From the NCBI GenBank assembly GCA_023205875.1, contig CP060768.1, forward strand, positions 310,001-374,000: DNA of 64,000 nt, read 5' to 3'. The number at the start of each line of letters is the position of its first letter. Position 1 is the first letter of the stretch. This stretch comes from Chloropicon primus. Its lineage: Eukaryota; Chlorophyta; Chloropicophyceae; Chloropicales; Chloropicaceae. Shown here piece after piece: positions 10,963-60,637 of the stretch. Position numbers and translations under genes: made by a program. The notes under the pieces are model-generated. The model saw only the letters and a program-made list of their open reading frames with translations. It ran no database searches and was not told the origin of the DNA.

Positions 10963-11470
10963 TTTGTTGCTGATTGGCGTTCGATGGAAGGCTCGGTTCC
11001 CTTAGAAGGGATTAAGGATGGTCCGTCCCCTCCTTGACTTGTTCGAACGAAGACACGGAGCTGAAGGACAATTAACCTCTCTCTAAACCACACAAGATCC
11101 TTTCGCTCTCGCTCTCGCTCTCGTTCTCTCTCTTTGTTGCTGATTGGCGTTCGATGGAAGGCTCGGTTCCCTTGGAAGGGATTAAGGATGGTCCGTCCCC
11201 TCCTTGACTTGTTCGAACGAAGACACGGAGCTGAAGGACAATTAACCTCTCTCTAAACCACACAAGATCCTTTCGCTCTCGCTCTCGCTCTCGTTCTCTC
11301 TCTTTGTTGCTGATTGGCGTTCGATGGAAGGCTCGGTTCCCTTGGAAGGGATTAAGGATGGTCCGTCCCCTCCTTGACTTGTTCGAACGAAGACACGGAG
11401 CTGAAGGACAATTAACCTCTCTCTAAACCACACAAGATCACGCGTGATCCTTTCGCTCGCTCTCCCTCTC
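10963..11470. repeat. Three-copy 170-bp tandem repeat
   Basis: Copies begin at 10963, 11133 and 11303, each with TTTGTTGCTGATTGGCGTTC; the period is exactly 170 bp. The first two full copies differ at only one position noticed (CTTAGAAGG versus CTTGGAAGG). The third copy diverges at about 11440, where it continues into a palindrome and a similar GATCCTTTCGCTC pyrimidine tract. Each unit holds a perfect short hairpin (TCCCTTGGAAGGGA) and the palindrome GTTCGAAC. 170 is not a multiple of 3 and the 63-residue minus-strand frames inside are not conserved domains. It could be a promoter-associated or structural repeat for the gene at 11646. Confidence 0.9.
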
Positions 11471-42887: not shown

Positions 42888-45042
42888 ATGTCGGGCGGGC
42901 GCGCGATGTCGGGCGGGCGCGTGGCGGTGCGCGATGCTTCCTTGTGTCTCGCCGTCGCCGTCACGGTGGTGGCAGCGTTGGCGCCGGCTTGCGAGGGCTT
43001 CTACCTTCCCGGCGTTGCCCCACAGGACTTTTCGAGAGGAGATGAAGTTCAGCCCCGAGTCGGACGAGTGAGCTCGGCGAAGACGCATATTCCATTCGGT
43101 ACGTCTGGCGAAGAGCTGGTGGGCACGTGCCCTCCTCTTCTTATCCCCCCGCCCTCCTCGGCCTTCCTCTGACACGCGCGCGAAACTCTTTCTTCTCTTT
43201 CTGTTGTCTTCTTTCCACGCCAAACACCAAACCCACTCCACCGAACGAACGGAAGACTACTACGAGCTGCCGTTGTGCGATCCCGCGGGGAAGCCGAAGG
43301 ATGCCCCGGCAAACTTGGGAGAGATCTTGTCCGCGGACCGATACCACTCTGCTCCTTTCCAGCTCGCGGCCTTGGTCAACGAGACTTGCAGGACGATGTG
43401 CGACTTTCCCCACACCCAGAAGGCTGTGAGACTTCGAAGCGCTCTCATCATGGACGCCTACGACGTGAGAATCAGGATCGACAACATGCCCGCAATGTAC
43501 CTGGAGGCAAAGCCGACCAGGAACGAGGTCACGCTGGAGACCGAAATACGTCTGGAGGCGCCCAAGGAGATTGGTTACCCGCTGGGCAGCATTCGCATCA
43601 TCGAAGGGAAGAGGACTATGGTGGTGCACAACCACATCACCCTTTGGATCCAGTACCACATGGTCGACTCGCCGCAGGCCCGTGGGAAGAAGGCGAGGAT
43701 CATCTCCGTGTACGTGACGACCACCACGTACGATTCCAGCGATCCAAGCACGTGGCAAGAGAACTGCAAGCAGGCCTCCTCGAGCCCCTTTCAGAACGTG
43801 GTGGCCCCCCAACTTGCAAGCAAGCCCACACGAATGAGCTACAGCGTGAGGTGGGTCGAGACGAGCAACAGGTGGGCCACGAGGTGGGACAGTATATTGC
43901 AGATGGACTCGTACGAGCACGAGACCAATTGGAGTTCCCTTATCAACACCATCCTCTTGCTGCTTTTGCTGGGATTCCTCGTCGCGGTCATCATCTTGAG
44001 GGCCGTGAAGAATGACTTCGCGGCCCTCAGAGAGTTCGAAGGCGACGACATGGGCGCGGAAGACGCAAGCAATGTCGTCTGGAAGAAGCTGGCCCGTGAT
44101 GTCTTCCGCCAGCCGCGCAGACTTTTCTTGCTGTCCGTGCTGTACGGGAACGGTGCCCAGCTGCTCGCGATGCTCGGGATGCAAATGTTCTTTGCCTTGT
44201 TGGGATTCTACTCCCCGTCGAACAGGGGCTCGTTCCTCACTTACTCCCTCATCGGCTACGCCTTCCTTGCCGTTGTGGGCGGCCGGGCAGCCAGCAGACT
44301 CTACGGGTGCTTTCCTGACGAGATGAACAGAAGGAAGCTTGTGGTGGCCACCGCAACCTTGATCCCAGGCACGGTCTTCGGCGCCTTCTTCCTGATCGAC
44401 CTGGTCCTTTGGGCCAAGGGATCTTCTGGGGCGACGCCGTTCCTCACCCTGCTCTTCATCATGTTCCTTTGGTTTGGTGTCACCCTGCCGCTCACGTTTT
44501 TGGGATCGTACCTTGGCTTTAAGAAGCCTTACGAGTTCCCCATCAAGCCGGCGAGGATACCAAGATTGGTCCCCCAGAAGACGTGCTTCATGAGTCTGCC
44601 CGTGTTGGCAACCTTTGCTGGGCTGACCTTGTACTCGATGATGTTCATTCAGGTGTTCCAAGTCGTCCAAAAAGTGTGGCTTCACCAGTTCGTATACATG
44701 TTTGGGTTCCTCTTCCTCTCCGGCACGTTTTTCCTCGTCGGCTGCATTGAGATCACAATCATTGCCGTGTACCTCACCCTGAGCTACGAGGACTACCACT
44801 GGTGGTGGAGGGCCTTCTTGGTTCCTTTCTCTTCTGGAATTTTCATGTTCCTGGGAACGAGCATCTACCAAGCCATGCTGACGAACGAGCTGTTCGACAA
44901 CGTGCAGTTCGTCACCGTGTGGATGATGTCCTCCTACTTGGGAATGAGCTGCCTTGCCGTCAGTCTCATCGCGGGAGCGGTTGGACTTTGGAGCAGCATC
45001 TGGTTCACGACAGTCATCTACTCCCGATGCAAGCCTGACTAA
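42888..45042 (+). CDS. TM9SF nonaspanin
   Basis: Exons 42888-43098 and 43256-45042 with a 157-nt phase-1 intron (GTACGT...CGGAAG) give 665 residues. Nonaspanins are nine-span proteins of the endosome/Golgi involved in sorting of membrane proteins. A signal peptide (VAVTVVAALAPACEGFYLPG) leads into the conserved lumenal start FYLPGVAPQDF and DYYELPLCDPAGKP. A lumenal beta domain contains CRTMCDF, then nine hydrophobic helices from residue 350 on. The loop NRGSFLTYSLIGYAFLAVVG and the motif FKKPYEFPIKPARIPR, next to PLTFLGSYLG, are nonaspanin hallmarks. The C-terminal RCKPD resembles the COPI/KxD-type sorting ending. Length and topology fit TM9SF2/4. Confidence 0.92.
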
Positions 45043-45177: not shown

Positions 45178-46506
45178 ATGGTGGCGACCGCTGTCTTGAC
45201 TTTGTCTTCGCCGTGGGACAGCTACCACAGGCTGTGGCTCGACCTCCTCCAGGCCGACAACGCTTCCCCTTGCGTCATCTACAATGCCTACGCCGGTGAC
45301 GTCCCTAGCTTGAGGGAGCTGAAAGAGAAGGAGGTGGAGACGCTGTGCGTCGTCGGGGTGGACTGTGGGTCGAACAACTGGAGCGCCCTTCGGGAGAACG
45401 AATGGGCGTCAAAGGTCGTGCGAGCGATCACGGAGTTCCTTAGCGCGGAGGAGGACGAGAGCAAACGGTTGTTCTGCTGCGGTTTGGGCAGCCACGCCGT
45501 TGCTGAAGCGCTTGGGTGTACGGTGTCGAGGAACCCGAGCACCTCCAACGTTGGGGAGGGAGGCGGCGAGGAGGGTGAGCGCTTCATTGTGGAGCCAACG
45601 GCGGTCCACGCCTGTCCGGCCCTTGTGGATACGATTGGCAGCTGGTTGAGGGAGACTAGGACGAACTCTCTGTCGCCTACGCCAAGATTGATGGCGAACG
45701 GCGACAGTAAGGTTGATCTGGGGAGCACCTTGTTTTTGCTGGAAAGCCACAGTGAGCAAGTGTCAGAACTGCCGCCCAGCTGCCAAATTCTCGCGAGCTC
45801 GAAGAAGACTCAAGCGGAGATCTGGACGATGGGCAAGAAGGTCTTGGCCTACCAGTGCCACCCGGAGCTCACGCCGGCTCTCTTCCGCGGCATGGTCCTG
45901 CCCAAGGTCGCGGAGTCGAAGCTGAGCTCCTCACAGGCAACAGAAGAGGCGAACTCCAAGCTGGATGACTTTGTCCTGGACTCTGAAGTCCTCGCGGCAA
46001 TGGCGAGGCACTTTATCAATGGGAACTGGATTGAATTGTCGCCGCAGAGGGACGCGAAGAAAGGCAGCGAGTCTGCGATCAAGTCCATGCCTGGTGGTGG
46101 TGGAGCCTCGGGGCTGTCTCCGTTACTCCAAGATGGAAGGATGCAGCAGGGGGGAGATTCGGTGTCGGCAGTGCAGCTTGACGGAGTCCTTGAAACGGCA
46201 AAGAAGATGTTCAACTCTGTTGCGCAAGCGATTCGCGGGGAGTTCAAAATACCGCAGATGGAATACGAGCTGCTGGGGAAGATGAACAAAGTGGCGAGCG
46301 AGAAGTATAATCACATGGCGGACTTCACCGCAGGACTTTCGGTGTTCGTGGAGTCCCTGAGAGAAAAGGAGGAATCGCTGCAACCCCTGGCTTCACAAAT
46401 AGATGGCTTGGAGAATCAACTGAACGAGCTTGAGAGTCTGGTGCTTCAGCTTGACGAGTACAGCAAAAGGCTTGAGAACAGAGTGAAGAAATACGTCTTT
46501 TCCTAA
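45178..46506 (+). CDS. Glutamine-amidotransferase-like / BLOC1S2 fusion
   Basis: Single exon, 442 residues. Residues 1-245 look like a class I glutamine amidotransferase: the nucleophile-elbow region LFCCGLGSHAVAEALGC (Cys100, Cys101), the segment LESHSEQVSELPPSCQILAS, and the closing dyad CHPE (His228, Glu230). The canonical nucleophile position relative to the GxH step is Gly102, with Cys one or two residues early, so activity is doubtful. Residues 345-442 match BLOC-1 subunit 2: MFNSVAQAIRGEFKIPQMEY, LLGKMNKVASEKY, LQPLASQIDGLENQLNELES, LDEYSKRLENRVKKY. BLOC1S2 is a helical subunit of BLOC-1/BORC in lysosome-related organelle traffic. The frame runs through both without a stop. Its stop lies 45 nt from that of the convergent MCM9 gene. 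Confidence 0.82.
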   Translation: MVATAVLTLSSPWDSYHRLWLDLLQADNASPCVIYNAYAGDVPSLRELKEKEVETLCVVGVDCGSNNWSALRENEWASKVVRAITEFLSAEEDESKRLFCCGLGSHAVAEALGCTVSRNPSTSNVGEGGGEEGERFIVEPTAVHACPALVDTIGSWLRETRTNSLSPTPRLMANGDSKVDLGSTLFLLESHSEQVSELPPSCQILASSKKTQAEIWTMGKKVLAYQCHPELTPALFRGMVLPKVAESKLSSSQATEEANSKLDDFVLDSEVLAAMARHFINGNWIELSPQRDAKKGSESAIKSMPGGGGASGLSPLLQDGRMQQGGDSVSAVQLDGVLETAKKMFNSVAQAIRGEFKIPQMEYELLGKMNKVASEKYNHMADFTAGLSVFVESLREKEESLQPLASQIDGLENQLNELESLVLQLDEYSKRLENRVKKYVFS

Positions 46507-46551: not shown

Positions 46552-49203
46552 TTACCTTCGGTTGTTCTCCTTGCTCCAAACATCGTAGCGATCTCCCCAG
46601 AGTTCTTTCTTCTTCTTCTCGCGGCGAAACTCGTCGTCCTCCTCCTCCTCTCCGCCAAAGTCTTCCTGAGACAAGTTGGCGTCACCCAAGGGCGCAGCGG
46701 TGAGGTACTTCCTTTTGCCGGGCCCCCCGTTGCAGTCGTCAAGAATCCCAAGTGAGGCCAGGAGCATTTGCTCCATTTTTCTGGACTCCTCGTCGGGATC
46801 GCGGGGTGCGAGCGACTGAGTCACGTTTTGCACGCCAAGGATCAAAGAATTTTTCATGGAAGCCTCCATCAGGCAGATGGCTGCAACGGCATCTTGCAGC
46901 CTGACCTGCTCCCTGGCCATCAATCGCGCGTGAGCCTGAGATAGCCTCACCAAGGACTCCAACATTCGTATCGTTGTTCTAGCCGATGGCCTGTTGTTTG
47001 ACTCCGATGCAGACAACTGCCGTTGTCTCTGGTAGTAGAGCTTCAGCACGTTCTCTGCATCCTTTGTCATGACCGGATTCAGTTTCCTCACGTAAGCTAC
47101 GTAGCTCTTCATTTTTTCTTGCGACCAGTATTCGTTCCCTGCGGCATCCTGGGACCCACAAGAGTTGTCACTGTGCTGATGCAGGACATGATCTGCGATC
47201 AAAGAGTCCCACTCTTTCAAGGAGAGGTCCCTCACCGTCAACACGAGGTCGAACCTGCTCAAGAGCGGCGCCGAAATGTTTACCATGTTTTCATCAAAAC
47301 CGGTCGTGAAGGGGTCGTAGCTTTGCTTCCTACCTGACTTGGGCTTCTTGATATTCGTGGAAGCAATGATTGCTGTCTGGGACCTTAGCTTGGTCACAAG
47401 CCCGGCCTTTGCTATGCTTAGAGTCTGTTGCTCCATCGCCTCGTGGATTGCGGCCCTGTCAGATTCCCTCATGGTCTCGAATTCATCGATGCAGCACAAA
47501 CCCCCGTCCGCCAGGACGAGGGCCCCAGCCTCGAGCGTCCATTCACTCCTTTTCCCCAGCTTCCCCCTGGCACCACCACCTGTCGTAGACCTGTCTCCCC
47601 TCGAGACAACGGCAGTCGCAGTGAGCCCCGCATTGGTCGAGCCCCTTCCGTTTGTCACCACACTTCTCGCACTGAGCCTTGCGGCGCATCTCATCAGCTG
47701 GGATTTACCGGTACCAGGATCACCAGCGAGCAGCAGGTGGCACTCCCCTCTGACAGAATGATTCCTGTCCTTCTGGTCCTGCACCGCTGCTGCAGACTTG
47801 GCCTTGAGGGATGCTTCGTTTTCAGCGACAGCCTTGCCGCTCGCCCCTCGCAATGGGACGCCTCCGCACAGCACGAGCATCACGGCAAGCTTGGCAATGT
47901 ACAGACCGTGGACCTGGGGCGACAGAGAGCCCACAATGAGGTCCCTGCCCGCCAGCGGCTTTGACGCGTACGTGCTCCAATGCCGGGCAACCCAAGCGCT
48001 CGAGTCGTCTGCTGGCGTGGCGGTCAGGCTGACAAGGTCTCCGCCTGCCGATGGGGAGCGTCCAGGAAGCCTGCCTTGAAGCTCGGCGGAATTTCCTGCC
48101 CCTGTAGGTCTGCCCGAGGCCAAAGATGGCTTGCTGGGTGCCTCCACAGCAGCGAGTCTCTTCTTGTTCAAATGCACCACATGAACTGCGTTGATCAAGA
48201 GCTCCACCTCACACTGCATCTCTATTTTCCCAATTTTCTTCCAGTGCTGGATCAGGATCCCCGTGACCTGAACTTCGTCCCCTGGCCTGAACTTATCCAC
48301 GAGGTCGTCTTCCAATCTCACCGTGATTGACTTTGGCGTCTTGTTTCCTCCGGCGCTCTCCCTCCCGGTACTAGAGCCCCGCGAGCCCCCGAGCTGCCTG
48401 TTCCACTCCTGCAGTCTTAATTCTTGGCAATCCTTGTGGTACTGATTCTCTTCACACCTCGTGAAGTTCGTTCCTTGGCAGCCGCTCTGGGGCTGCTCTT
48501 GGGATCCCCTCGACGAAGAGCCCTGGGACCCTTGGAACTCCCGTCCCAGCCTCTTCTTCCTCCGGCGACCCTTTGCGTCGTTTGGGCAAACTTCTGGAAG
48601 CTGGACGTGCCCGCCGGCGTGGATATCGACGTCCACTTCAAACCTCGAGTGGCACCGGTTGCACTCGTACTGTTGCTTGTACTCCACGAGGTGCGGGGAC
48701 CCCAGCTTCGTGATGGTGCCGCTCACACAGACAAGGCGACTGGCCATGCAGGCCCGCAGCTCGCCCACCGAAGGGCTGACGAGAGACCTCCCGGGCATGG
48801 CATCCCAAGAATTGTTCAAGCGAGCGCCAGGGATGCCGTACACCCTTGCCTTTGCGTTCGGCTTGACCGTCATGTCCTCCCCTCTCGGGTGCTTCGACTT
48901 CATGTAGTGCTGGGCGGCTACAAGCGCTCTGTCAAAGTGCTTCAGGAGGAGCAGGGGGTCCCTCACGACTTGCTCGACCAAGAACGGCTGCGCCTGGGCG
49001 AGCTCCACCAGGCAAACCTCCACCACCAGCTTGGCGTCCTCCTCTCCCGCCCCCGTTGCGTTGCTTCCAAGCCATCCCGCTTCGTGTTCGCCATCTTCCT
49101 TGGCGAGGAGAACCCTTTCGATCTGCCCAGAGCACGTTATCGAGAGCAAATAGTGCCCGGCCAGAGCATCTATCACCTCCCCGGCCTTCGGATGCCCTGC
49201 CAT
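46552..49203 (-). CDS. MCM9: MCM9 helicase
   Basis: Single exon, 883 residues from the ATG at 49203. MCM9 forms a complex with MCM8 in homologous recombination and break repair. The N-terminal OB domain carries a zinc site (CNRCHSRF). Between C-x2-C and the second half sits a basic, low-complexity insertion (KGRRRKKRLGREFQGSQGSS), then YHKDCQELRLQEW. The AAA+ core includes Walker A (GDPGTGKSQ, near residue 491), Walker B (GLCCIDEFE, near 571), sensor ASTN and the arginine finger in PLLSRFDLVL (near 649). The lid ends with LVRLSQAHARL. The zinc-region spacing and QELRLQEW resemble MCM9 and MCM8 more than MCM2-7. MCM9 is favoured by the motif VRLEDDLVDKFRPGDEV. MCM8 is the main alternative. Confidence 0.82.
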   Translation of the reverse strand: MAGHPKAGEVIDALAGHYLLSITCSGQIERVLLAKEDGEHEAGWLGSNATGAGEEDAKLVVEVCLVELAQAQPFLVEQVVRDPLLLLKHFDRALVAAQHYMKSKHPRGEDMTVKPNAKARVYGIPGARLNNSWDAMPGRSLVSPSVGELRACMASRLVCVSGTITKLGSPHLVEYKQQYECNRCHSRFEVDVDIHAGGHVQLPEVCPNDAKGRRRKKRLGREFQGSQGSSSRGSQEQPQSGCQGTNFTRCEENQYHKDCQELRLQEWNRQLGGSRGSSTGRESAGGNKTPKSITVRLEDDLVDKFRPGDEVQVTGILIQHWKKIGKIEMQCEVELLINAVHVVHLNKKRLAAVEAPSKPSLASGRPTGAGNSAELQGRLPGRSPSAGGDLVSLTATPADDSSAWVARHWSTYASKPLAGRDLIVGSLSPQVHGLYIAKLAVMLVLCGGVPLRGASGKAVAENEASLKAKSAAAVQDQKDRNHSVRGECHLLLAGDPGTGKSQLMRCAARLSARSVVTNGRGSTNAGLTATAVVSRGDRSTTGGGARGKLGKRSEWTLEAGALVLADGGLCCIDEFETMRESDRAAIHEAMEQQTLSIAKAGLVTKLRSQTAIIASTNIKKPKSGRKQSYDPFTTGFDENMVNISAPLLSRFDLVLTVRDLSLKEWDSLIADHVLHQHSDNSCGSQDAAGNEYWSQEKMKSYVAYVRKLNPVMTKDAENVLKLYYQRQRQLSASESNNRPSARTTIRMLESLVRLSQAHARLMAREQVRLQDAVAAICLMEASMKNSLILGVQNVTQSLAPRDPDEESRKMEQMLLASLGILDDCNGGPGKRKYLTAAPLGDANLSQEDFGGEEEEDDEFRREKKKKELWGDRYDVWSKENNRR

Positions 49204-50100: not shown

Positions 50101-51199
50101 ATGGTGACCGCAAAGGTGGAGAAGGTCACGGTGGTGCCAGGGATGAGCCCCTTCCTGCAGAGGACGAAGAGCTCGAACAATGGTGGCCTCCTCGAGGACG
50201 GCGAGAGTGACGCGGGGTCGGACGGGAGCGGCAAGTTCAACAAAGTCATCAGGGATGCCGAGACAAACGTCGCGAGGCTGGCGGGAGTGATGCAGAACGC
50301 GGAGGCGGAGCTCGAGAAGGCGTTTAACCGGACTGGAGCCTTGCAGAAAGACTACACAAACAAGTTGGAGCAGCAACTCGAGGAGCTCAAGGGCATCCTG
50401 GGGAGCAAGCAGGCGCAGGTGACGTACCTCGAGGACAAGGTGGGCAACCTGAAAGAGAATTACGGGGAGAAGCTGTCTCAGGCCCAAGCCAAGATCGCTG
50501 CCTTGGAACAGGAGCAGAGAAGGTACAAGCACTCGCACACGCAGGAGCGAGCGAGACTGTCGGAGAACCTTCAGAGAGACCTTTCTGCTTTGAACGTTCA
50601 AGTGCGACAACTGAATCAGAGCAAAACGGAACTGGAGAAGCAAGTGGAGCGGCTCAGCATCGAGAACAGCGTCCTGAAGAGGAAGGAGAAAGTGTCCCCG
50701 GCTTCAGTCTTCGAGTTCGACGTCAATCGCGTCTCCAAGTTAGAGAAAGAGATGCAAGAGTGCAAGCAGCAGCTTGGCTTGGAGAAGGCGAGGAACGCGA
50801 AGCTGCAGAAGAAGATACAAAAGCTCGAGGAGGAGAGCCGCAAGGTGAGCCCATCACCCGACGTGGGAACCCGGGTGCGAGGGTTTTGGACGACCTGCAG
50901 ACACTGACAAAGCCGGTTTGGTTTCTTTCCTCCTCCCTTCGGTTCGATCGATGCAGGCGGACTTGGTGATGAGCGAGAAGTACAGGAATTTCGCGGACAT
51001 GAAGGTCCCCTACAAGGAGCAACTGAGGAGGGAGAACGAAGAGCTGAGGAGCAGCCTCTTGGCGAGCACCTTGGCGACCGACCCCGCGGCGAAGCAAAAG
51101 GAGCTCGACGACATCCACCTCAACTGGGTGAACAGAGTCTTGAACTCCGGGCACTTTGAAGGATCCGTTTGTGGAAACAGCTGGTGGTCCTCCTATTGA
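50101..51199 (+). CDS. Coiled-coil protein of unknown function (copy 1)
   Basis: Exons 50101-50844 and 50957-51199 with a 112-nt phase-0 intron (GTGAGC...ATGCAG) give 328 residues. From residue 45 to 250 the sequence is a near-continuous coiled coil (LEKAFNRTGALQKDYTNKLE, QLEELKGILGSKQAQVTYLE, LNVQVRQLNQSKTELEKQVE). A short globular-looking tail follows (DLVMSEKYRNFADMKVPYKE, NWVNRVLNSGHFEG). There is no membrane span or enzymatic motif. The function is not recognised; scaffold, flagellar or cytoskeletal roles are possible. The 3' part of this gene, from 50309 on, is repeated at 59747 together with the cyclase. TGTAA at 51232-51236 is a candidate poly(A) signal. Confidence 0.75.
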
Positions 51200-54100
51200 A
51201 GGCTCGAGAGCGAGGAGCAAAGTAAACAAAATGTAAACAAAAGAACTTTTCAAGAACAACAACGCAGTGCGACATCCTCTCTCCCTCTTCTCGTCTCTTC
51301 TGATCATCCAATCGTAACGCTTCTTCGCCATTTTGCTTTGGCCTTCTTCCTCTTCAGAGATCGAGATGGGGACGGGAGGACCACGGCGCTTCTGTCTACG
51401 AGAGCGGGCGCGCTGTTCCCTTTGAGCGCAGCATGGACGGAAGCGAAGAGGAGGAGGAACTCGGCGACAGAGTGCTGGACCACCTGACCGCGCGTTACTT
51501 GCGACATGAGAGTGAAAGCGGGGGGGCGGCTGGTCGGGAAGGGTTTGACTCGCACACCGTGTTCTTCGGGCTCTTCCTGCGGACCGTGCGGATGGAGAGG
51601 GTTTTCCTCGACGGCTTCGCGAGGCTCCACCAAAGGAACGTGTACTTGGGCCTCGTCGTCCTCCTCGTTGTTCTCATCGTGTACCAGCTGTACACGTTCC
51701 CAGCTGCCTCGCAGCAAGACCGCTGGTGCAGCGAAAACAATCTCGAAAACAGCTTATGCACCTCGGTGGCGATTTTGGAACCCGGGCAGAGCGAAGCGTC
51801 CTACCTAAGTGAACAGCTCGCATATGTGTGGCGGGTCTCTTATTCTGTGCTGGTCGGAATGTCGGTCGTTGGCGCGGCCGTGAACTGGTTCGTGCATCGA
51901 TCCAGCAGAGTGAAGGAGAAGTCTTGGGCGATGCTCATTCTCTTTTTGACTCCATATATAGGGTAGGTCTTTCTACGCACCGCAGTAGGACTTTCGTTGC
52001 TCTTCCTTACTGACTCTTATCTTCCTGGAAAGATACTCCGTTTATGCCTTGGTCCTCGTGTACGATAACCCCGATAACTGGCTGACGACCCCTACCGATG
52101 CCAAGGCCTATGTCATCCTCGTGGTTGGGCTGTTCACCTTCATCTCAGGCGCAAGCCTGTTCGCTTTCGTTGCCTTGTTCATGGCTGTTGCTGTCATCTG
52201 TTCGTCGGCCCTATTCGTGGTCCAAATGCAATACCTGGATTATCCACGAAATAGGAGAATTTTGAGAGCATCCTTTGCCGAGTCCATGTTCCAGATACTC
52301 GTCTTCTTCTCAATCTCCCTCGCAGGTAAGCCCCAGCCGCGCCTTCTCCCTGCCTTTCTTCGACTGACTTGATTTGTGTCCCCAGGCTCGTTCTGGAGAG
52401 AGGTCATCAACAAGAGGCAGTTTCTCTTGCGTATTCTGATGGCGGACCAGCAGGAGGAGATTATCCGCAGTAAGACGCAAAACACAACGCTGCAAAAGCG
52501 TCTGCTGAACAGCATGCTGCCTGATGCCATTGTAGATCGACTCCAGGAGCTTGACTTCCAAGTTCAAACGTGGGATCAGCTCAGAGGCATGTCAAGGCGC
52601 CACTCTGGAGTCTGCATCGCGTTTGCTGAGCTGGACGGCTTCACAGAGTTCTCTGCCCAGGTGTCTCCCCCGCGGGTGATGGAGTACCTCTGCGACCTCT
52701 TTCTGACCTTCGATGGATTGTGCGATGACTATGACGTGTACAAGGTGGAGACTGTGGGAGACCAGTATGTGGCCGCCGTCGGTGTTGTCACGGGAAAAAT
52801 GCACAACGAAGAAGTGCGCGAAGATGAGGATGGGGAAGGCTTCGGTGCGCTGAGAAGGTCTGTGAACGTCTCTGTCAAGGACGCTTCCAAATTCAACACC
52901 GAGCAGATTCTTGGATTCTCAAAGGCCATTATCGACGGGTCACGACTAGTCAATGTTCCCGAGGGAGCAGACACACACCCTCGTTTGCGCGTAAGTACCA
53001 ACCTCTGAGGCGACGACCTGAGGCAACCTTGCGCTGACTCCTGTTTGCTTCATTTCCTTCAGGTTGGCATCCACGTAGGCCCTTGCATGAGCGGGATCGT
53101 CGGCCAACGGAACTTTCGGTTCTGCCTGTTCGGCGACACAATGAACACAGCAGCGAGGATGGAGCAGAAAGGCGAGCCTGATTGCATCCACGCGACGCAG
53201 GATGTAGTCGATCTCGTTCCTCACGCTTCTTGGGAGAAGCTACAAAGGATGGAAGTCAAGGGCAAGGGCGTCATGCAAACGTATTTGCTTCGGTCGAACA
53301 AGGAAATCCTCACGGATAGCAGACCTCTTACGGCGCAAGATGCTTTCCTTGCAAGCCCCTTGATTCACAGGATTGCCTCGTTTGGAACAGGGACGAGTGC
53401 TTGGACCTCGACCAATACTGCCGAATCCTTTCGAGTTGGGTCTTACCAAGACATTCAGCCCGTGACCAGCGAAGTGTATAGCGAGCACACCTTTTGCTTT
53501 GGTCTGTTCTTCCGTAAGGCTAGGGTAGAGAAATGCTTTTTGGACGCCCTTGCCAGATCGGATAAGAACATGGTTTACGCCGGCTACCTCTTGTATGTTG
53601 TGGTGCTTCTGTCCAACTATATTTACGGGTATTTCCGTTTTTATGTGGTGTGCGATGACATAGGGACGCTGGATTCTATGGAATCTTTCAACGAAGGCTT
53701 GGATAGCTTGGCGTGCTTGTATTACTTGGGTAGTGACCCCTTCTTGTCCCAGAACAATAGTGCCAGCACGATGACATCGTATAAGAACATCGTGCGAGCC
53801 TCAGCATTCAATCTGACTCCAGGGAGCGCGGCTCTTCTCCTTGGACTCGTTGTGTTGGGCTGCGCATCTCACTTTTACATCCACAAATCGCGTAGGTTCG
53901 TTCACAAGTATTGGGCACTTCTCAACGTATGGGTGTTCTACCTGATGTTGTATGGGAGCATGCTGGGCACAACAATCCTTACCAAGAGGAAAGATTCGTC
54001 CACCTCCCAGTGGACAGAGGCTCTCTGGTTCATATCCGTGACAATGGATACTCTGCAAACTGTGTTCGCTCGATCTGGCTTCCCCATGCATTTCATTTTC

Positions 54101-54562
54101 CTCATGATTGGGAGCGGCATAACTCTGGGCTGGGGGATGACGGAGCTTGCGAAGGTGAAAGAGGCTAGTTTCAGCGACAAAAATGGCGATAATCAGTGGA
54201 TTGGGAGCCTCGACATTCAGGCTGGGCTTGCTCCAACAAGGAGTACCTCCAGCGTCATTCAACTTGCTTTCTTTCTTTTGTGCTTCAATGTCATTTTGGT
54301 CATTGGAGCTTACCAGGAGGACATCTCGAACAGAAAAAGGTTTTTGCAGAGCATGCTCTTACTCAGGCAGCAGGACGAGATTATCGCTCAGAAGAGGAAG
54401 ACGGAGAAGCTGCAGAAGAGCTTCCTGGAAAGCATCCTTCCTTCAAATCTTGTGGAGCAGCTGCAAGAGGAAGACAGGTCTGCCCTCTCCTTGTCCCAAA
54501 GGCACATAGGCGTCAGCATCCTTTACGCTGACCTCGTTGGGTTCACCGCATTCTGCAAGCAG
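50309..54562 (+). repeat. Segmental duplication, copy 1
   Basis: This segment and 59747-64000 read the same at every point compared, with a constant 9438-bp offset; open frames on both strands and in introns and intergenic sequence give identical translations. Copy 1 begins inside exon 1 of the coiled-coil gene (AGCTCGAGAAGGCGTTTAAC) and covers most of the cyclase gene. The right end is set only by the window edge. Confidence 0.93.
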
Positions 54563-55183
54563 GTCGACCCTTTTGAGGTTATGGTCTTCCTCAATAGCTT
54601 GTTCCGCGTCTTTGATGACTTCTGCGACCTCTTTGGTGTGTACAAGGTCGAGACTGTGGGCGACTGTTACGTTGCAAGCGTTGGAGTCGCCACCGGAAGA
54701 ATGATTTCCCAGAGGGTGGATGCCACAGACTCCACGCGAGAGTACTCCATCGATTTCGTGGACAGTTACTCCAGAAGTTTCAGCACCAGCGCCAGCATCT
54801 CACTTGTCAAGGACGCGGCCCGCAGTAACACCAGGAGCCTCGTTGGCTTCGCCAAGGCCATGCTGCTGGGATCGAGGAAGGTCATGAAGCCTGTGGTGGG
54901 TCAGCCGGCCACTTTGAGAATCGGCTTGCACTCTGGCTCCTGCATCAGTGGGGTGGTGGGCAGTCGAAACATCAAGTACTGCCTCCTTGGGACGGATGTC
55001 GTGACCGCGGCCATGATGGAGCACGAGGGAGCTCCCGATCGTATCCACGCCTCTCAGGCCGTCGTTGACGACGTTCCGGAGGAAGAGTGGGAAATCTTCA
55101 AGCTCGTCGAGGACAGGGACGGAAATAAACTCCAGACTTACTTCCTCAAATCAATCCAGCCTGTGAGAGAAGACACTTGTTGA
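51433..55183 (+). CDS. Two-half membrane guanylyl-type cyclase (copy 1)
   Basis: Exons 51433-51962, 52033-52325, 52386-52990 and 53063-55183 join in phases 2, 1 and 0 to give 1182 residues. Each half has a multi-span membrane block (about five to six helices) and a class III nucleotide cyclase domain, near residues 350-560 and 958-1160. The halves share a start motif (FFGLFLRTVRMERVFLD and CFGLFFRKARVEKCFLD), so the gene arose by internal duplication. Both domains carry the guanine-type pair Glu (396, 1006) and Cys (497, 1116). Domain 1 keeps the transition-state Asn504 and Arg508, but its first metal ligand is Glu356. Domain 2 keeps Asp966 and Asp1010 but has Val1123 and Met1127 instead of Asn and Arg. 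One composite active site making cGMP is inferred. No receptor domain is recognised. Confidence 0.88.
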
Positions 55184-55606
55184 ACAACGAATGATAGGCT
55201 TTATCATCAGAAACTATTTAATCAAGCTAAATCAAGCGAATAAAATAAAAGCACTTTTCCTCACTCACCGCTGAAGTTGCTGCCCCCACCTCCAAACTCA
55301 AACAAGTGGAACTCGCGTGGGGAACTCTCGTGCACCTCTCTTCTCATCTTCTCATCTCTCTCAGGACGTTGTGTTTGGTTTGCTGAAGCCAATGCCAATC
55401 CTCCTCCTTGGCCGTGGCAGATTTTGCTGATGAGGGAGGGGTGACTCGTAACTCGGAGGATGGGCATGACCGAGGGCGAGTCATGCATGCATTGGCAGCG
55501 TGACATAGGGGATCCATCCGGCTGCCAGAATCGAGACGACGCTGGCGACGACCGCTGCCCCAAACCACTAAGCAGTACCACACGAGCCCAAACGTTTTAG
55601 ACAAGA
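55184..55606. promoter_or_regulatory. Upstream block of beta-lactamase-like gene 1
   Basis: After an AATAAAATAAAA stretch (55240-55250, probable cyclase 3' signal), the block from 55252 is repeated at 57182 and, more diverged, at 59185. It contains spaced copies of GGAACTCKCGTG and CTCGTG (reverse complement CACGAG). It is read here as shared promoter sequence. On the minus strand it also leaves an open frame ending PREFHLFEFGGGGSNFSG. Confidence 0.55.
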
Positions 55607-57109
55607 ATGAAGTCGAGCGCTGCGAAGCACATGTCGCTCCTGGTCCTGGCCCTGGCCCTGTCGTTGTCGTGCCTTGGCTCGTCGGCTTTGGCCGCCAATG
55701 AGACCGACCCTTCATCCGCCGCGCTGCCTCCTGCGAGCGGGACCATGTCCCAGGAGGAACAGCTGGCGCAGCTCAGCTCGGTGTTTGCGTCTCTCGTCCA
55801 GCAAGGATCCGATGTTGTGATGGGAAGGAAGGCGAAAGTCGGCCAGGCGTGCACCGCGGAGTACCCCCCGAGCTCCTTCCCCGCCACTGAGGACGGCCTC
55901 GTGGAGATGGTGGAGAACTACACGAGGTGCTTCTCTGATAAGCTCGGGTTCCCTATTGCCACCGGGTACCGAGGACCCCTCGCCGAGGAGGAGGCCATCT
56001 TCACCACCCACAAGCCCGCGTCCAACTGGACCGGGATCAGCGAGGGTCAGCTCGTGCCCTCCGGCTCCGTGATGAAGAGCTTCTTGGGCGTGGCGGCCTT
56101 CAACGTTCTCAACAGCACCGAGGGCGCCGTGACTTGGGACACCCCAATGTACCCCTTCGTGAATCGCGTGCTCTCCCGGGACTTCAACACGAGCTTGGAC
56201 GAGCTCTTTGATGACAAGCGCATCAAGGACGTGACCATTCAGCAGCTCCTGTCGATGACCTCCGGCCTCAAAGACTACAGCGAAGACATGGCGCCAGAGT
56301 TCATCGGTTATGGCCCGGGGAACACCCAGGAAGCAAGCTTCACTCCCATTGAGTACATTGACAACATGATCCAGACCTGGGGGAACAAGCTGAGCTGCGA
56401 TCCGGGAACCTGTTACTACTATTCAAGCAACGGTTTTGCGTTTGCAGGCATGATGCTGGTCGACATCTTGGGTTTGGACTCGTGGAAGGATTTGGACATT
56501 CTGGAGCTCGCGTTTCAATCAAACCCGGGGCTCAAGTCGGAGTTCAACAACACGGTTGCTTCAACCCCCAACAAGTTGTGCTCCGAGTACGGGCAGCTCC
56601 CCGATGGCAGCAACAGGGTTGTCAACCAGTGGAGTGAAAATGGCACAAATTTGTATGACTATGACTGCTTGGATGGGTGGGCGTTCGGAAACCTCATGAT
56701 CGACGCCCCAGACACCGCGAGCTGGTTCTGGCACCTCTACGGGTTGAGAGATATCCTGGGCACGGAGGACGTGGACATGATGCTCACCCCGACCAACACG
56801 TCTTCCACTTACGGTCTTGCTTCCGAAATCAATGCAATGCAGGGGCAGGGAAAATTGAACAACCGGTACTCGTGGGCTGGACACCAGGGGACGGACTGGG
56901 GCTCCTCCAACAGTGGAGCTGGTCTCTTCATGCCGAATGCGAAGGACAACGGCAAAGAGAGGGCGTTTGCCCTGTCCTTGACGCAGAACGACCTTTCCAT
57001 CCACGGACAAGACGATTTTGCTCAGACAACTTCGCTGACGAGGGCCTCCACCGTCTACTTGGCGAACGCGATCATACAGCTCCTGGAGAAGAACTTTGAG
57101 GACAGCTAA
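55607..57109 (+). CDS. Secreted beta-lactamase-fold serine hydrolase, gene 1
   Basis: Single exon, 500 residues. A clear signal peptide (LLVLALALSLSCLGSSALAA) is followed by about ten N-x-S/T glycosylation sites, so it is probably secreted or lysosomal. It belongs to the beta-lactamase-related (class C/LACTB/esterase) family. The catalytic Ser154-x-x-Lys157 is in VPSGSVMKSFLG, the helper motif QQLLSMTSGLKDY follows, the tyrosine motif is YYYSSNGFAFAG and the third motif HxG is in WAGHQGTDWG. These enzymes act on esters, amides or peptides; the substrate is unknown. A paralogue lies directly downstream. The two differ most over residues 47-85, just after the signal peptide. Confidence 0.87.
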   Translation: MKSSAAKHMSLLVLALALSLSCLGSSALAANETDPSSAALPPASGTMSQEEQLAQLSSVFASLVQQGSDVVMGRKAKVGQACTAEYPPSSFPATEDGLVEMVENYTRCFSDKLGFPIATGYRGPLAEEEAIFTTHKPASNWTGISEGQLVPSGSVMKSFLGVAAFNVLNSTEGAVTWDTPMYPFVNRVLSRDFNTSLDELFDDKRIKDVTIQQLLSMTSGLKDYSEDMAPEFIGYGPGNTQEASFTPIEYIDNMIQTWGNKLSCDPGTCYYYSSNGFAFAGMMLVDILGLDSWKDLDILELAFQSNPGLKSEFNNTVASTPNKLCSEYGQLPDGSNRVVNQWSENGTNLYDYDCLDGWAFGNLMIDAPDTASWFWHLYGLRDILGTEDVDMMLTPTNTSSTYGLASEINAMQGQGKLNNRYSWAGHQGTDWGSSNSGAGLFMPNAKDNGKERAFALSLTQNDLSIHGQDDFAQTTSLTRASTVYLANAIIQLLEKNFEDS

Positions 57110-57181
57110 TCGGAACTCCTGAGAGCAACGAGTGATTCCAATCATTATTGAGAACAATATTTACTGAGATTAATTAGAAAA

Positions 57182-57563
57182 CACTTTTCCTCACTCACCG
57201 CTGAAGTTGCTGCCCCCACCTCCAAACTCAAACAAGTGGAACTCGCGTGGGGAACTCTCGTGCACCTCTCTTCTCATCTTCTCATCTCTCTCAGGACGTT
57301 GTGTTTGGTTTGCTGAAGCCAATGCCAATCCTCCTCCTCCTATGGGCATGACCGAGGGCGAGTCATGCATGCATTGGCAGCGTGACATCGACGGAGACCG
57401 GAGACCGATGGGGGACGAGCCCATCATGGGCATGGGGAGACATGTGCCCATGGTATGCGGAATAGGGGATCCATCCGGCTGCCAGAATCGAGACGACGCT
57501 GGCGACGACCGCTGCCCCAAACCACTAAGCAGTACCACACGAGCCCAAACGTTTTAGACAAGA
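57182..57563 (+). repeat. Upstream block of beta-lactamase-like gene 2
   Basis: Copy of the 55252 block, nearly identical at first, then with one internal replacement: a segment around 57389-57465 (rich in GGAGACCG and ATGGGCATG) is present here, while a TGGCCGTGGCAGATTTTGCT segment of copy 1 is absent. The last 100 bp before the ATG are identical again. Confidence 0.88.
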
Positions 57564-59066
57564 ATGAAGTCGAGCGCTGCGAAGCACATGTCGCTCCTGG
57601 TCCTGGCCCTGGCCCTGTCGTTGTCGTGCCTTGGCTCGTCGGCTTTGGCCGCCAATGAGACCGACCCTTCATCCGCCGCGCTGCCTCCTGCGAGCGGGAC
57701 CATGTCCGAGGAGGAAGAGTTGGCGGAGCTCAGCTCGGTGTTTATGCCTATTGTAAAGGAAGGATCCAATGCTTTCAAGGCAATGAAGGATGAGGTCGGT
57801 AAGAAGTGCACCGCGGAGTACCCCCCGAGCTCCTTCCCCGCCACTGAGGACGGCCTCGTGGAGATGGTGGAGAACTACACGAGGTGCTTCTCTGATAAGC
57901 TCGGGTTCCCTATTGCCACCGGGTACCGAGGACCCCTCGCCGAGGAGGAGGCCATCTTCACCACCCGCAAGCCCGCGTCCAACTGGACCGGGATCAGCGA
58001 GGGTCAGCTCGTGCCCTCCGGCTCCGTGATGAAGAGCTTCTTGGGCGTGGCGGCCTTCAACGTTCTCAACAGCACCGAGGGCGCCGTGACTTGGGACACC
58101 CCAATGTACCCCTTCGTGAATCGCGTGCTCTCCCGGGACTTCAACACGAGCTTGGACGAGCTCTTTGATGACAAGCGCATCAAGGACGTGACCATTCAGC
58201 AGCTCCTGTCGATGACCTCCGGCCTCCAGGACTACGGCGAAGACATGGCGCCAGAGTTCATCGGTTATGGCCCGGGGAACACCCAGGAAGCAAGCTTCAC
58301 TCCCATTGAGTACATTGACAACATGATCCAGACCTGGGGGAACAAGCTGAAATGTGATCCGGGAACCTGCCACTACTATTCAAGCAACGGTTTTGCGTTT
58401 GCAGGCATGATGCTGGTCGACATCTTGGGTTTGGACTCGTGGAAGGATTTGGACATTCTGGAGCTCGCGTTTCAATCAAACCCGGGGCTCAAGTCGGAGT
58501 TCAACAACACGGTTGCTTCAACCCCCAACAAGTTGTGCTCCGAGTACGGGCAGCTCCCCGATGGCAGCAACAGGGTTGTCAGCCAGTGGAGTGAAAATGG
58601 CACAAATTTGTATGACTATGACTGTTTCGATGGGTGGGCGTTCGGAAACCTCATGATCGACGCCCCAGACACCGCGAGCTGGTTCTGGCACCTCTACGGG
58701 TTGAGAGATATCCTGGGCACGGAGGACGTGGACCTGATGCTCACCCCGACCAACACGTCTTCCACTTACGGTCTTGCTTCCGAAATCAATTCAATGCAGT
58801 GGCAGGGAAATTTGAACAACCGGTACTCGTGGGCTGGACACATGGGGACGGACTGGGGCTCCTCCAACAATGGAGCTGGTCTCTTCATGCCGAATGCGAA
58901 GGACAACGGCAAAGAGAGGGCGTTTGCCCTGTCCTTGACGCAGAACGACCTTTCCATCCACGGAGAAGACGATTTTGCTCAGACAACTTCGCTGACGAGG
59001 GCCTCCACCGTCTACTTGGCGAACGCGATCATACAGCTCCTGGAGAAGAACTTTGAGGACAGCTAA
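57564..59066 (+). CDS. Secreted beta-lactamase-fold serine hydrolase, gene 2
   Basis: Tandem duplicate of the preceding gene, 500 residues, offset 1957 bp. Signal peptide and all three active-site motifs are kept (GSVMKSFLG, YYSSNGFAFAG, WAGHMGTDWG). Outside residues 47-85 I count only about fifteen substitutions. Inside that segment about half of the residues differ, for example SSVFMPIVKEGSNAFKAMKD instead of SSVFASLVQQGSDVVMGRKA. An enzyme of the same class with a changed N-terminal surface is the simplest reading. Confidence 0.87.
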   Translation: MKSSAAKHMSLLVLALALSLSCLGSSALAANETDPSSAALPPASGTMSEEEELAELSSVFMPIVKEGSNAFKAMKDEVGKKCTAEYPPSSFPATEDGLVEMVENYTRCFSDKLGFPIATGYRGPLAEEEAIFTTRKPASNWTGISEGQLVPSGSVMKSFLGVAAFNVLNSTEGAVTWDTPMYPFVNRVLSRDFNTSLDELFDDKRIKDVTIQQLLSMTSGLQDYGEDMAPEFIGYGPGNTQEASFTPIEYIDNMIQTWGNKLKCDPGTCHYYSSNGFAFAGMMLVDILGLDSWKDLDILELAFQSNPGLKSEFNNTVASTPNKLCSEYGQLPDGSNRVVSQWSENGTNLYDYDCFDGWAFGNLMIDAPDTASWFWHLYGLRDILGTEDVDLMLTPTNTSSTYGLASEINSMQWQGNLNNRYSWAGHMGTDWGSSNNGAGLFMPNAKDNGKERAFALSLTQNDLSIHGEDDFAQTTSLTRASTVYLANAIIQLLEKNFEDS

Positions 59067-59184
59067 TCGGAACAACCCTTACCCAGGGCCCTCCCTGGCT
59101 GGGCAACGAATGGTGCCTATCATTATTGAACATAAGAACATATTTAATGAACCCCTATTTAATCAAGCTAGCTAATCAAGAAAA

Positions 59185-59320
59185 CACTTCTCCTCACCGA
59201 GTGTTATAACCTCCATCTCCAAACTCCAACTCGTGGAACTCTCGTGGACAATCTCGTGCACCTCTCTTGTCCTCTTCTCCTCGCTCGTGAGGTTTGCTTA
59301 AGCCAATCCTCTCGTCGTCC
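59185..59320 (+). repeat. Third, diverged copy of the upstream block
   Basis: Similar to 55252 and 57182 in order and wording: CACTTCTCCTCAC at the start, then CTCGTGGAACTCTCGTGGAC, CTCGTGCACCTCTCTT and AAGCCAATCCTC. No beta-lactamase gene follows; instead the truncated coiled-coil gene begins. The flank before it (TATTTAATCAAGCTA) matches the 3' flank of the first cyclase at about 55214. Confidence 0.78.
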
Positions 59321-59397
59321 TCCCTTTCTTGGTCTTCTGACTTCATAAGACAGAACACTCCGATCCAATCCACCCCAGCACTGTGGTTTCCACTCCA

Positions 59398-60637
59398 ATG
59401 GTCTCTTGTCAAGTTTTCCAACCCTTCCCCAAGGGAATCGAACAACCCACCTCGTTGTCCTTCTCCTTCTCCTTCTCCTTCTCCTTCTCCTTCGTCTTAT
59501 CCTTTCCCTTTGCCTTTGCCTTTCCCTTTTCAGTCGGCTGGACACGTCTCAAGCAGCTGGGAGTTCTCGAGGGCTCAGAACTCAAACCTGCAGGACATCT
59601 GGTGGGCGAACAACCGAGCCGAGGAGGTGAGTGGAGTCTGTCGTGCAGAGGGAAGAGAAGGGGCGAGGGTGAGGAAGCGGTCTGGGCTCGTCCACTCGTG
59701 CTCTTTTCGTTTGACCCTCACCCCACCCCACCTCCCTCTGTCGCCAAGCTCGAGAAGGCGTTTAACCGGACTGGAGCCTTGCAGAAAGACTACACAAACA
59801 AGTTGGAGCAGCAACTCGAGGAGCTCAAGGGCATCCTGGGGAGCAAGCAGGCGCAGGTGACGTACCTCGAGGACAAGGTGGGCAACCTGAAAGAGAATTA
59901 CGGGGAGAAGCTGTCTCAGGCCCAAGCCAAGATCGCTGCCTTGGAACAGGAGCAGAGAAGGTACAAGCACTCGCACACGCAGGAGCGAGCGAGACTGTCG
60001 GAGAACCTTCAGAGAGACCTTTCTGCTTTGAACGTTCAAGTGCGACAACTGAATCAGAGCAAAACGGAACTGGAGAAGCAAGTGGAGCGGCTCAGCATCG
60101 AGAACAGCGTCCTGAAGAGGAAGGAGAAAGTGTCCCCGGCTTCAGTCTTCGAGTTCGACGTCAATCGCGTCTCCAAGTTAGAGAAAGAGATGCAAGAGTG
60201 CAAGCAGCAGCTTGGCTTGGAGAAGGCGAGGAACGCGAAGCTGCAGAAGAAGATACAAAAGCTCGAGGAGGAGAGCCGCAAGGTGAGCCCATCACCCGAC
60301 GTGGGAACCCGGGTGCGAGGGTTTTGGACGACCTGCAGACACTGACAAAGCCGGTTTGGTTTCTTTCCTCCTCCCTTCGGTTCGATCGATGCAGGCGGAC
60401 TTGGTGATGAGCGAGAAGTACAGGAATTTCGCGGACATGAAGGTCCCCTACAAGGAGCAACTGAGGAGGGAGAACGAAGAGCTGAGGAGCAGCCTCTTGG
60501 CGAGCACCTTGGCGACCGACCCCGCGGCGAAGCAAAAGGAGCTCGACGACATCCACCTCAACTGGGTGAACAGAGTCTTGAACTCCGGGCACTTTGAAGG
60601 ATCCGTTTGTGGAAACAGCTGGTGGTCCTCCTATTGA
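59398..60637 (+). CDS. Coiled-coil gene copy 2 with a different 5' end
   Basis: From 59747 on this equals the gene at 50101-51199, including the intron 60283-60394 and the last exon 60395-60637. The first 70 codons of the parent are missing. Two alternative 5' structures are open. One is an unspliced frame from the ATG at 59398, giving 375 residues with a Ser/Phe repeat at the N-terminus. The other is spliced: exon 59534-59626 (reads WEFSRAQNSNLQDIWWANNR, ending AEE before GTGAGT) joined at CCAAG to 59749 in phase 0. The splice fits well, with a long pyrimidine tract, but its own upstream start was not found. It may be a chimeric gene or a 5'-truncated copy. Confidence 0.5.

Follow-up and report, generated by a model that had tools for sequence, protein, structure and literature searches.

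Results

Gene structure and genomic setting

The window analysed here, a stretch of 64,000 nucleotides from Chloropicon primus (contig CP060768.1, positions 310,001 to 374,000, forward strand), contains an uninterrupted frame at 45178..46506 (+) that runs from ATG to TAA and encodes a protein of 442 residues. It joins a domain of the class I glutamine amidotransferase or gamma-glutamyl-peptidase (GGP)-like type (residues 1-283; 45178..46026, +) through a linker (residues about 284-335; 46027..46182, +) to a BLOC1S2 coiled-coil domain (residues 343-437; 46204..46488, +), and the same arrangement is found in the related proteins P0002, P0003 and P0004. Upstream lies a gene for a TM9/EMP70 protein (43204-45042; PF02990, 1.3e-139), and downstream a convergent MCM helicase gene occupies the minus strand (46552-49203; PF00493, 7e-58). 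An intronless gene of 1329 bp is unremarkable in this strain, because the genome paper on C. primus RCC138 reports a mean exon length of 975 bp and 0.54 introns for each gene (PMC12301720). According to that paper, RNA-seq of CCMP1205 served in the annotation of RCC138. A scan of the region about 45900-46250 for the pattern GT[AG]AG, which is not an intron test as such, returned no match.

Elsewhere in the window, a unit of about 9.44 kb (50309-59746) is repeated in tandem, with the second copy starting at 59747 and its 4254 bases up to the window end 100% identical; in the chromosome (G000:C15, L046) the match extends to about 378510, over 8765 columns at 99.6%. This repeat reflects either the recent duplication of a segment in tandem or an artefact of the assembly. 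Inside the unit, two tandem stretches (55247-59073; DNA 94.5% identical) each carry a 500-aa ORF of the beta-lactamase family PF00144 (55607-57109, 1.2e-12; 57564-59066, 1.7e-12), preceded by a nucleotide cyclase (53045-55183; PF00211, 1e-57). A direct repeat of 307 bases at 10963-11439 (99.7% identity, offset 170 bases) forms a short tandem array.

Both halves of the protein are conserved domains

An earlier sequence-only reading had proposed that one frame joins an amidotransferase fold to a full BLOC1S2 domain, and had suggested profile searches of both halves. The BLOC1S2 assignment held: PF10046 matches residues 343-437 (1.8e-28) with 99.2 bits against a curated cut-off of 33.4, over positions 2-96 of the 96 in the profile, and phmmer against the PDB retrieved chain 9tqb_H, named BLOC1S2, over residues 337-436 (1e-6). 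For the first half the fold was borne out, but the PF00117 score of 18.7 bits lies under the curated cut-off of 22.8, as do those of four relatives (15.6-21.5 bits), which places all five first-half sequences below it. The closest fold match and the C-terminal helix identify the first half as GGP1-like, and the nearest solved structures are, by their titles, GGP1 with Glu bound and GGP1 with a gamma-Glu intermediate; identity to GGP1 is 16-19% in the VIA rows. The VIA and Foldseek lists are filled by the amidotransferase domain, and the absence of the BLOC1S2 half from them is uninformative. Taken together, both domains are real and their fusion is common to relatives.

Mean confidence is low in both structure models (pLDDT 60.7 and 58.7). 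In the C-terminal half two long helices are modelled; confidence is low for the first (329-355) and for part of the second (360-441), and pLDDT is below 50 at residues 289-338, in the region of the linker. The elbow region of the amidotransferase fold is modelled better, with block means of 78-89 at residues 91-120.

Conservation follows the same partition. Residues 1-283 are 57-61% identical between the window protein and four relatives (P0005 being partly aligned), with 88 of 283 positions identical across all five sequences; linker residues 284-334 are 18-27% identical to three relatives, and residues 335-442 are 78-81% identical to the same number. These values suggest that selection maintains both halves and leaves the tether free to diverge. 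Within the first half, the conserved stretches of the pocket region's C-terminal half read LLESH.EQV...P, LASS..T.AEIW and LA.QCHPELTPAL. A further stretch, WLRxTRxxSLSPxPR (residues 156-170; 45643..45687, +), has its specified letters invariant in all five sequences.

The nucleophile of the amidotransferase fold is lost

A free-standing GGP-like amidotransferase of 296 aa is encoded in the same genome (G000:C12; locus L002, 949-1839). It is related to the first half of the fusion (hhalign probability 85, E 6.2e-6) and shows no BLOC1S2 part in the alignment. The free paralogue keeps LGICFGHQ and GHPE and is for that reason presumably active, probably as the active counterpart of the domain in the fusion. 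Most or all of WLRxTRxxSLSPxPR appears to be an insertion relative to this paralogue: hhalign places residues 156-170 wholly opposite a gap, and MAFFT aligns residues 157-158 and begins the gap after 158. Residues 161-170 have pLDDT values under 50.

The elbow of the fusion reads RLFCCGLGSH (residues 97-106; 45466..45495, +). Both hhalign and MAFFT set it on RVLGICFGHQ of the free paralogue, and since the hhalign placement is gapless, Gly102 (45481-45483, +) occupies the position of the nucleophilic Cys, as the sequence-only reading had assigned it. The G-x-C-x-G signature thus lacks its Cys in each of the five sequences, all of which have Gly102 there, whereas the catalytic His228 and Glu230 (QCHPE; 45859..45867, +) are retained throughout, again in line with that reading. 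Positions invariant in all five comprise G102, L103, G104, S105, H106, H191, C227, H228 and E230. By contrast, positions 100 and 101 vary across the five proteins, the former being C, S, C, G and C and the latter C, S, C, C and C; P0002 has Ser-Ser at this pair and P0004 has Gly at 100. Structure prediction, which had been proposed as a check on the elbow, gave nucleophile-elbow geometry: in both models a strand (97-102) runs straight into a helix (103-111), which puts the turn at 102.

As a control, PF00117 was searched against the genome (17,584,162 bases in 20 contigs). At E <= 0.01 it matched 11 places, one of which is the fusion and three of which (C1:208208-209004) we take to be fragments of a single gene; this leaves eight other genes, all of which keep G-x-C-x-G. 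The first domain looks like a conserved pseudoenzyme, and gamma-glutamyl peptidase activity would not be expected of it, because the nucleophile is missing.

Relatives carry the same fusion

Protein searches for the same fusion elsewhere, another check that had been suggested, found three further full-length proteins in one frame with PF10046: P0002 (433 aa, 59% identical), P0003 (483 aa, 55%; longest contig 119,422 bases) and P0004 (458 aa, 53%; labelled 'GMP synthase-like glutamine amidotransferase' by a source). Two shorter proteins complete the set. P0005 (323 aa) covers the first half; P0006 (187 aa), the sole addition of a profile search, begins within the amidotransferase tail and continues through BLOC1S2. 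In P0006 the amidotransferase C-terminal helix (LDSEVLMAMARHF) shares an ORF with BLOC1S2, so the split between P0005 and P0006 lies off the domain boundary. The two probably derive from a single gene that an intron or a frameshift interrupts, because the longest contig of both is the same (3498), and it is from this value that a shared contig would follow. P0002 to P0006 likely belong to Chloropicophyceae. The two full-length protein searches scored 7993 and 7992 candidates, so more distant fusions may have been missed.

Eight proteins, one of them P0006, were listed when the BLOC1S2 piece served as query. P0007, P0008 and P0010 (79-85% identical; 137, 82 and 80 aa) have BLOC1S2 without the first half, but they are short, their longest contigs measure 553, 1097 and 20,689 bases, and a first half may lie upstream. 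Lower identity (33-56%) sets apart P0009, P0011, P0012 and P0013, whose ORFs of 112-172 aa look, judged by their N-termini, like free-standing BLOC1S2, with P0009, P0011 and P0012 on contigs of just 737, 1260 and 587 bases. A viral contig search (query A1) gave 33 pattern matches and a genome contig search with the free paralogue gave 21, with no relatives in either.

We rejected an internal start in the linker because it would not be conserved: from residue 276 to residue 352, P0002 lacks any Met. Met275, inside the amidotransferase C-terminal helix, is kept in all five proteins covering that position, and a shorter BLOC1S2 form could begin there.

The sequence-only reading knew of no described fusion of this kind. 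In agreement, open-licence PMC full texts contain no paper that mentions BLOC1S2 together with an amidotransferase and none that mentions Chloropicon together with BLOC1S2, and the main texts of the two Chloropicon genome papers do not mention an amidotransferase (PMC12301720, PMC6731263).

BLOC1S2 supply and partner subunits

PF10046 matched 14 places in the genome, and the fusion alone exceeds the cut-off of 33.4 (102.9 bits; next 25.4). The fusion is therefore presumably the source of BLOC1S2, although a second, intron-split gene could have been missed, because the genome was searched exon by exon. Partner subunits are encoded as well. BLOC1S1, two Snapin/Pallidin places, KXD1 and BORCS8 lie above their own cut-offs, and KXD1 (50.1 bits) and BORCS8 (61.7 bits) are specific to BORC, the subunit list of which we took from PMC6771566. 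The set found leans towards BORC. Dysbindin and Muted, which are specific to BLOC-1, gave no match in the genome, the control genomes being equally silent for them. Among the remaining BORC-specific subunits, BORCS5 had no match in the genome profile search, which short, intron-split genes can escape, and with the same proviso BORCS6 (23.5 bits against 35) and BORCS7 (17.0 against 27.3) were found below threshold. In the alternative nomenclature, MEF2BNB is BORCS8, Myrlysin BORCS5, Lyspersin BORCS6 and Diaskedin BORCS7. None of 14 control genomes scored above cut-off for BLOC1S1, Snapin/Pallidin, KXD1, BORCS8 or PF10046. Sub-threshold coiled-coil matches are common: among the prokaryote controls they occurred in 9 of 14 for PF10046 and for PF14712, in 2 of 14 for PF06320 and in 0 of 14 for PF10241 and PF10167.

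Discussion

What might a gamma-glutamyl peptidase fold contribute to a trafficking subunit? We consider it probable, though by no means assured, that the protein is a BORC/BLOC-1-type subunit with a tethered, non-catalytic GGP-like docking module. We envision that the gene encodes the cell's BLOC1S2, permanently fused at its N terminus to a class I amidotransferase fold of the GGP type, in which the cysteine chemistry of the family would no longer be possible. The C-terminal coiled coil would most likely assemble with BLOC1S1, the Snapin/Pallidin-like subunits, KXD1 and BORCS8, and the resulting BORC/BLOC-1-type complex might reside on vacuolar or late endosomal membranes. The flexible linker of about 50 residues would let the folded pseudoenzyme hang off the complex, and the pseudoenzyme may act as a docking or regulatory module, probably via a conserved surface that includes WLRxTRxxSLSPxPR. 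This invariant and probably exposed loop is a candidate binding or phosphorylation site, as it contains RxxS and SP patterns, which we take to resemble phosphorylation sites. A corollary is that no such complex would lack the extra domain, because the genome has no other BLOC1S2 above the cut-off. If so, the conserved fusion would link the core of a membrane-trafficking complex, in a marine picoalga, to a metabolic fold that has lost its catalytic function, and might offer a natural handle both on the roles of non-catalytic amidotransferase folds and on regulatory input into BORC-type complexes outside animals.

Alternatively, the pseudoenzyme might be a ligand sensor, in whose old pocket glutamine, glutamate, glutathione or a gamma-glutamyl compound would be bound without being cleaved, so that BORC-driven organelle positioning would respond to nutrient or redox state. 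Few parts of the domain are as conserved as the C-terminal half of the pocket region, and the nearest solved structures hold Glu or a gamma-Glu intermediate, if their titles are followed. Conservation is strong on the His/Glu side of the pocket and extends to the elbow side, there in a changed, non-catalytic form. In active class I enzymes, the HQ of GHQ belongs to the substrate site; the elbow of the fusion, however, has lost these residues along with the Cys and now reads GSH, and we regard a sensor as rather unlikely. In mammals, amino-acid supply is reported to steer lysosome positioning via Ragulator, with Lyspersin providing the link to BORC (PMC6771566); in C. primus Lyspersin is only a sub-threshold match. 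It is conceivable that in this marine picoalgal lineage the dead gamma-glutamyl peptidase on BLOC1S2 senses glutamine, glutamate or glutathione status and acts as a direct gate on BORC, replacing the Ragulator-Lyspersin link of animals. Such an arrangement, although unlikely, would amount to a metabolite sensor built into the complex that positions lysosomes or vacuoles. It might also be supposed that the coiled coil was borrowed solely as an oligomerisation or targeting tag and has no role in a BORC-type complex, given that the fused form is unusual and that BORCS5, BORCS6 and BORCS7 were not found above cut-off. This is decidedly unlikely, since the fusion is the sole above-cut-off BLOC1S2, the BLOC1S2 half is the better conserved one and the partner families are present.

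Two further readings concern the gene and its chemistry. An artificial join of two genes, by an assembly error, a missed stop or a missed intron, could be suspected from the one relative in which the halves sit in two ORFs (P0005 and P0006). Yet three relatives read through in one frame, P0003 on the long contigs noted above, and P0005/P0006 break not at the linker but within the amidotransferase tail, the pattern expected of an intron or frameshift; on these grounds we reject two separate genes and hold an artificial join to be very improbable. As to chemistry, the sequence-only reading had left a choice between a pseudo-enzyme and a shifted Cys. The former is favoured. Cys100 and Cys101 do adjoin the elbow, but the pair reads CC, SS, CC, GC and CC in the five proteins, in which G102 and GLGSH never change, and the modelled turn falls at 102, which makes an enzyme using a neighbouring Cys untenable for the family as a whole. 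Cys227 is invariant, but it adjoins the catalytic His and is an ordinary residue of the fold, because the solved structure 3l7n of the same fold likewise reads QCH. We thus reject the shifted-cysteine enzyme, and deem activity through Cys100, Cys101 or Cys227 extremely improbable.

How does the proposed BORC/BLOC-1-type subunit with a docking module compare with known systems? In its profile match, its long modelled helices and its similarity to 9tqb_H, the C-terminal half resembles BLOC1S2 (BLOS2, PF10046), a subunit shared by BLOC-1 and BORC. BLOC1S2 is usually a small free protein, as the ORFs of P0009, P0011, P0012 and P0013 illustrate, whereas here it is joined to a domain of 283 residues. 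In Arabidopsis, BLOS2 is a separate gene, At5g49550, and its product is reported to have BLOS1 and SNX1 as interaction partners (PMC5035748). Compared with Arabidopsis GGP1, which has the class I fold, the first half has Gly for the nucleophilic Cys, GSH for GHQ, and WLRxTRxxSLSPxPR as an addition. A plant parallel for a metabolic pseudoenzyme is PDX1.2, which belongs to a different pathway and is not known to be fused to a trafficking subunit. Like the role that we envision for the first half of the fusion, that of PDX1.2 is described as the role of a non-catalytic regulator (PMC6829848).
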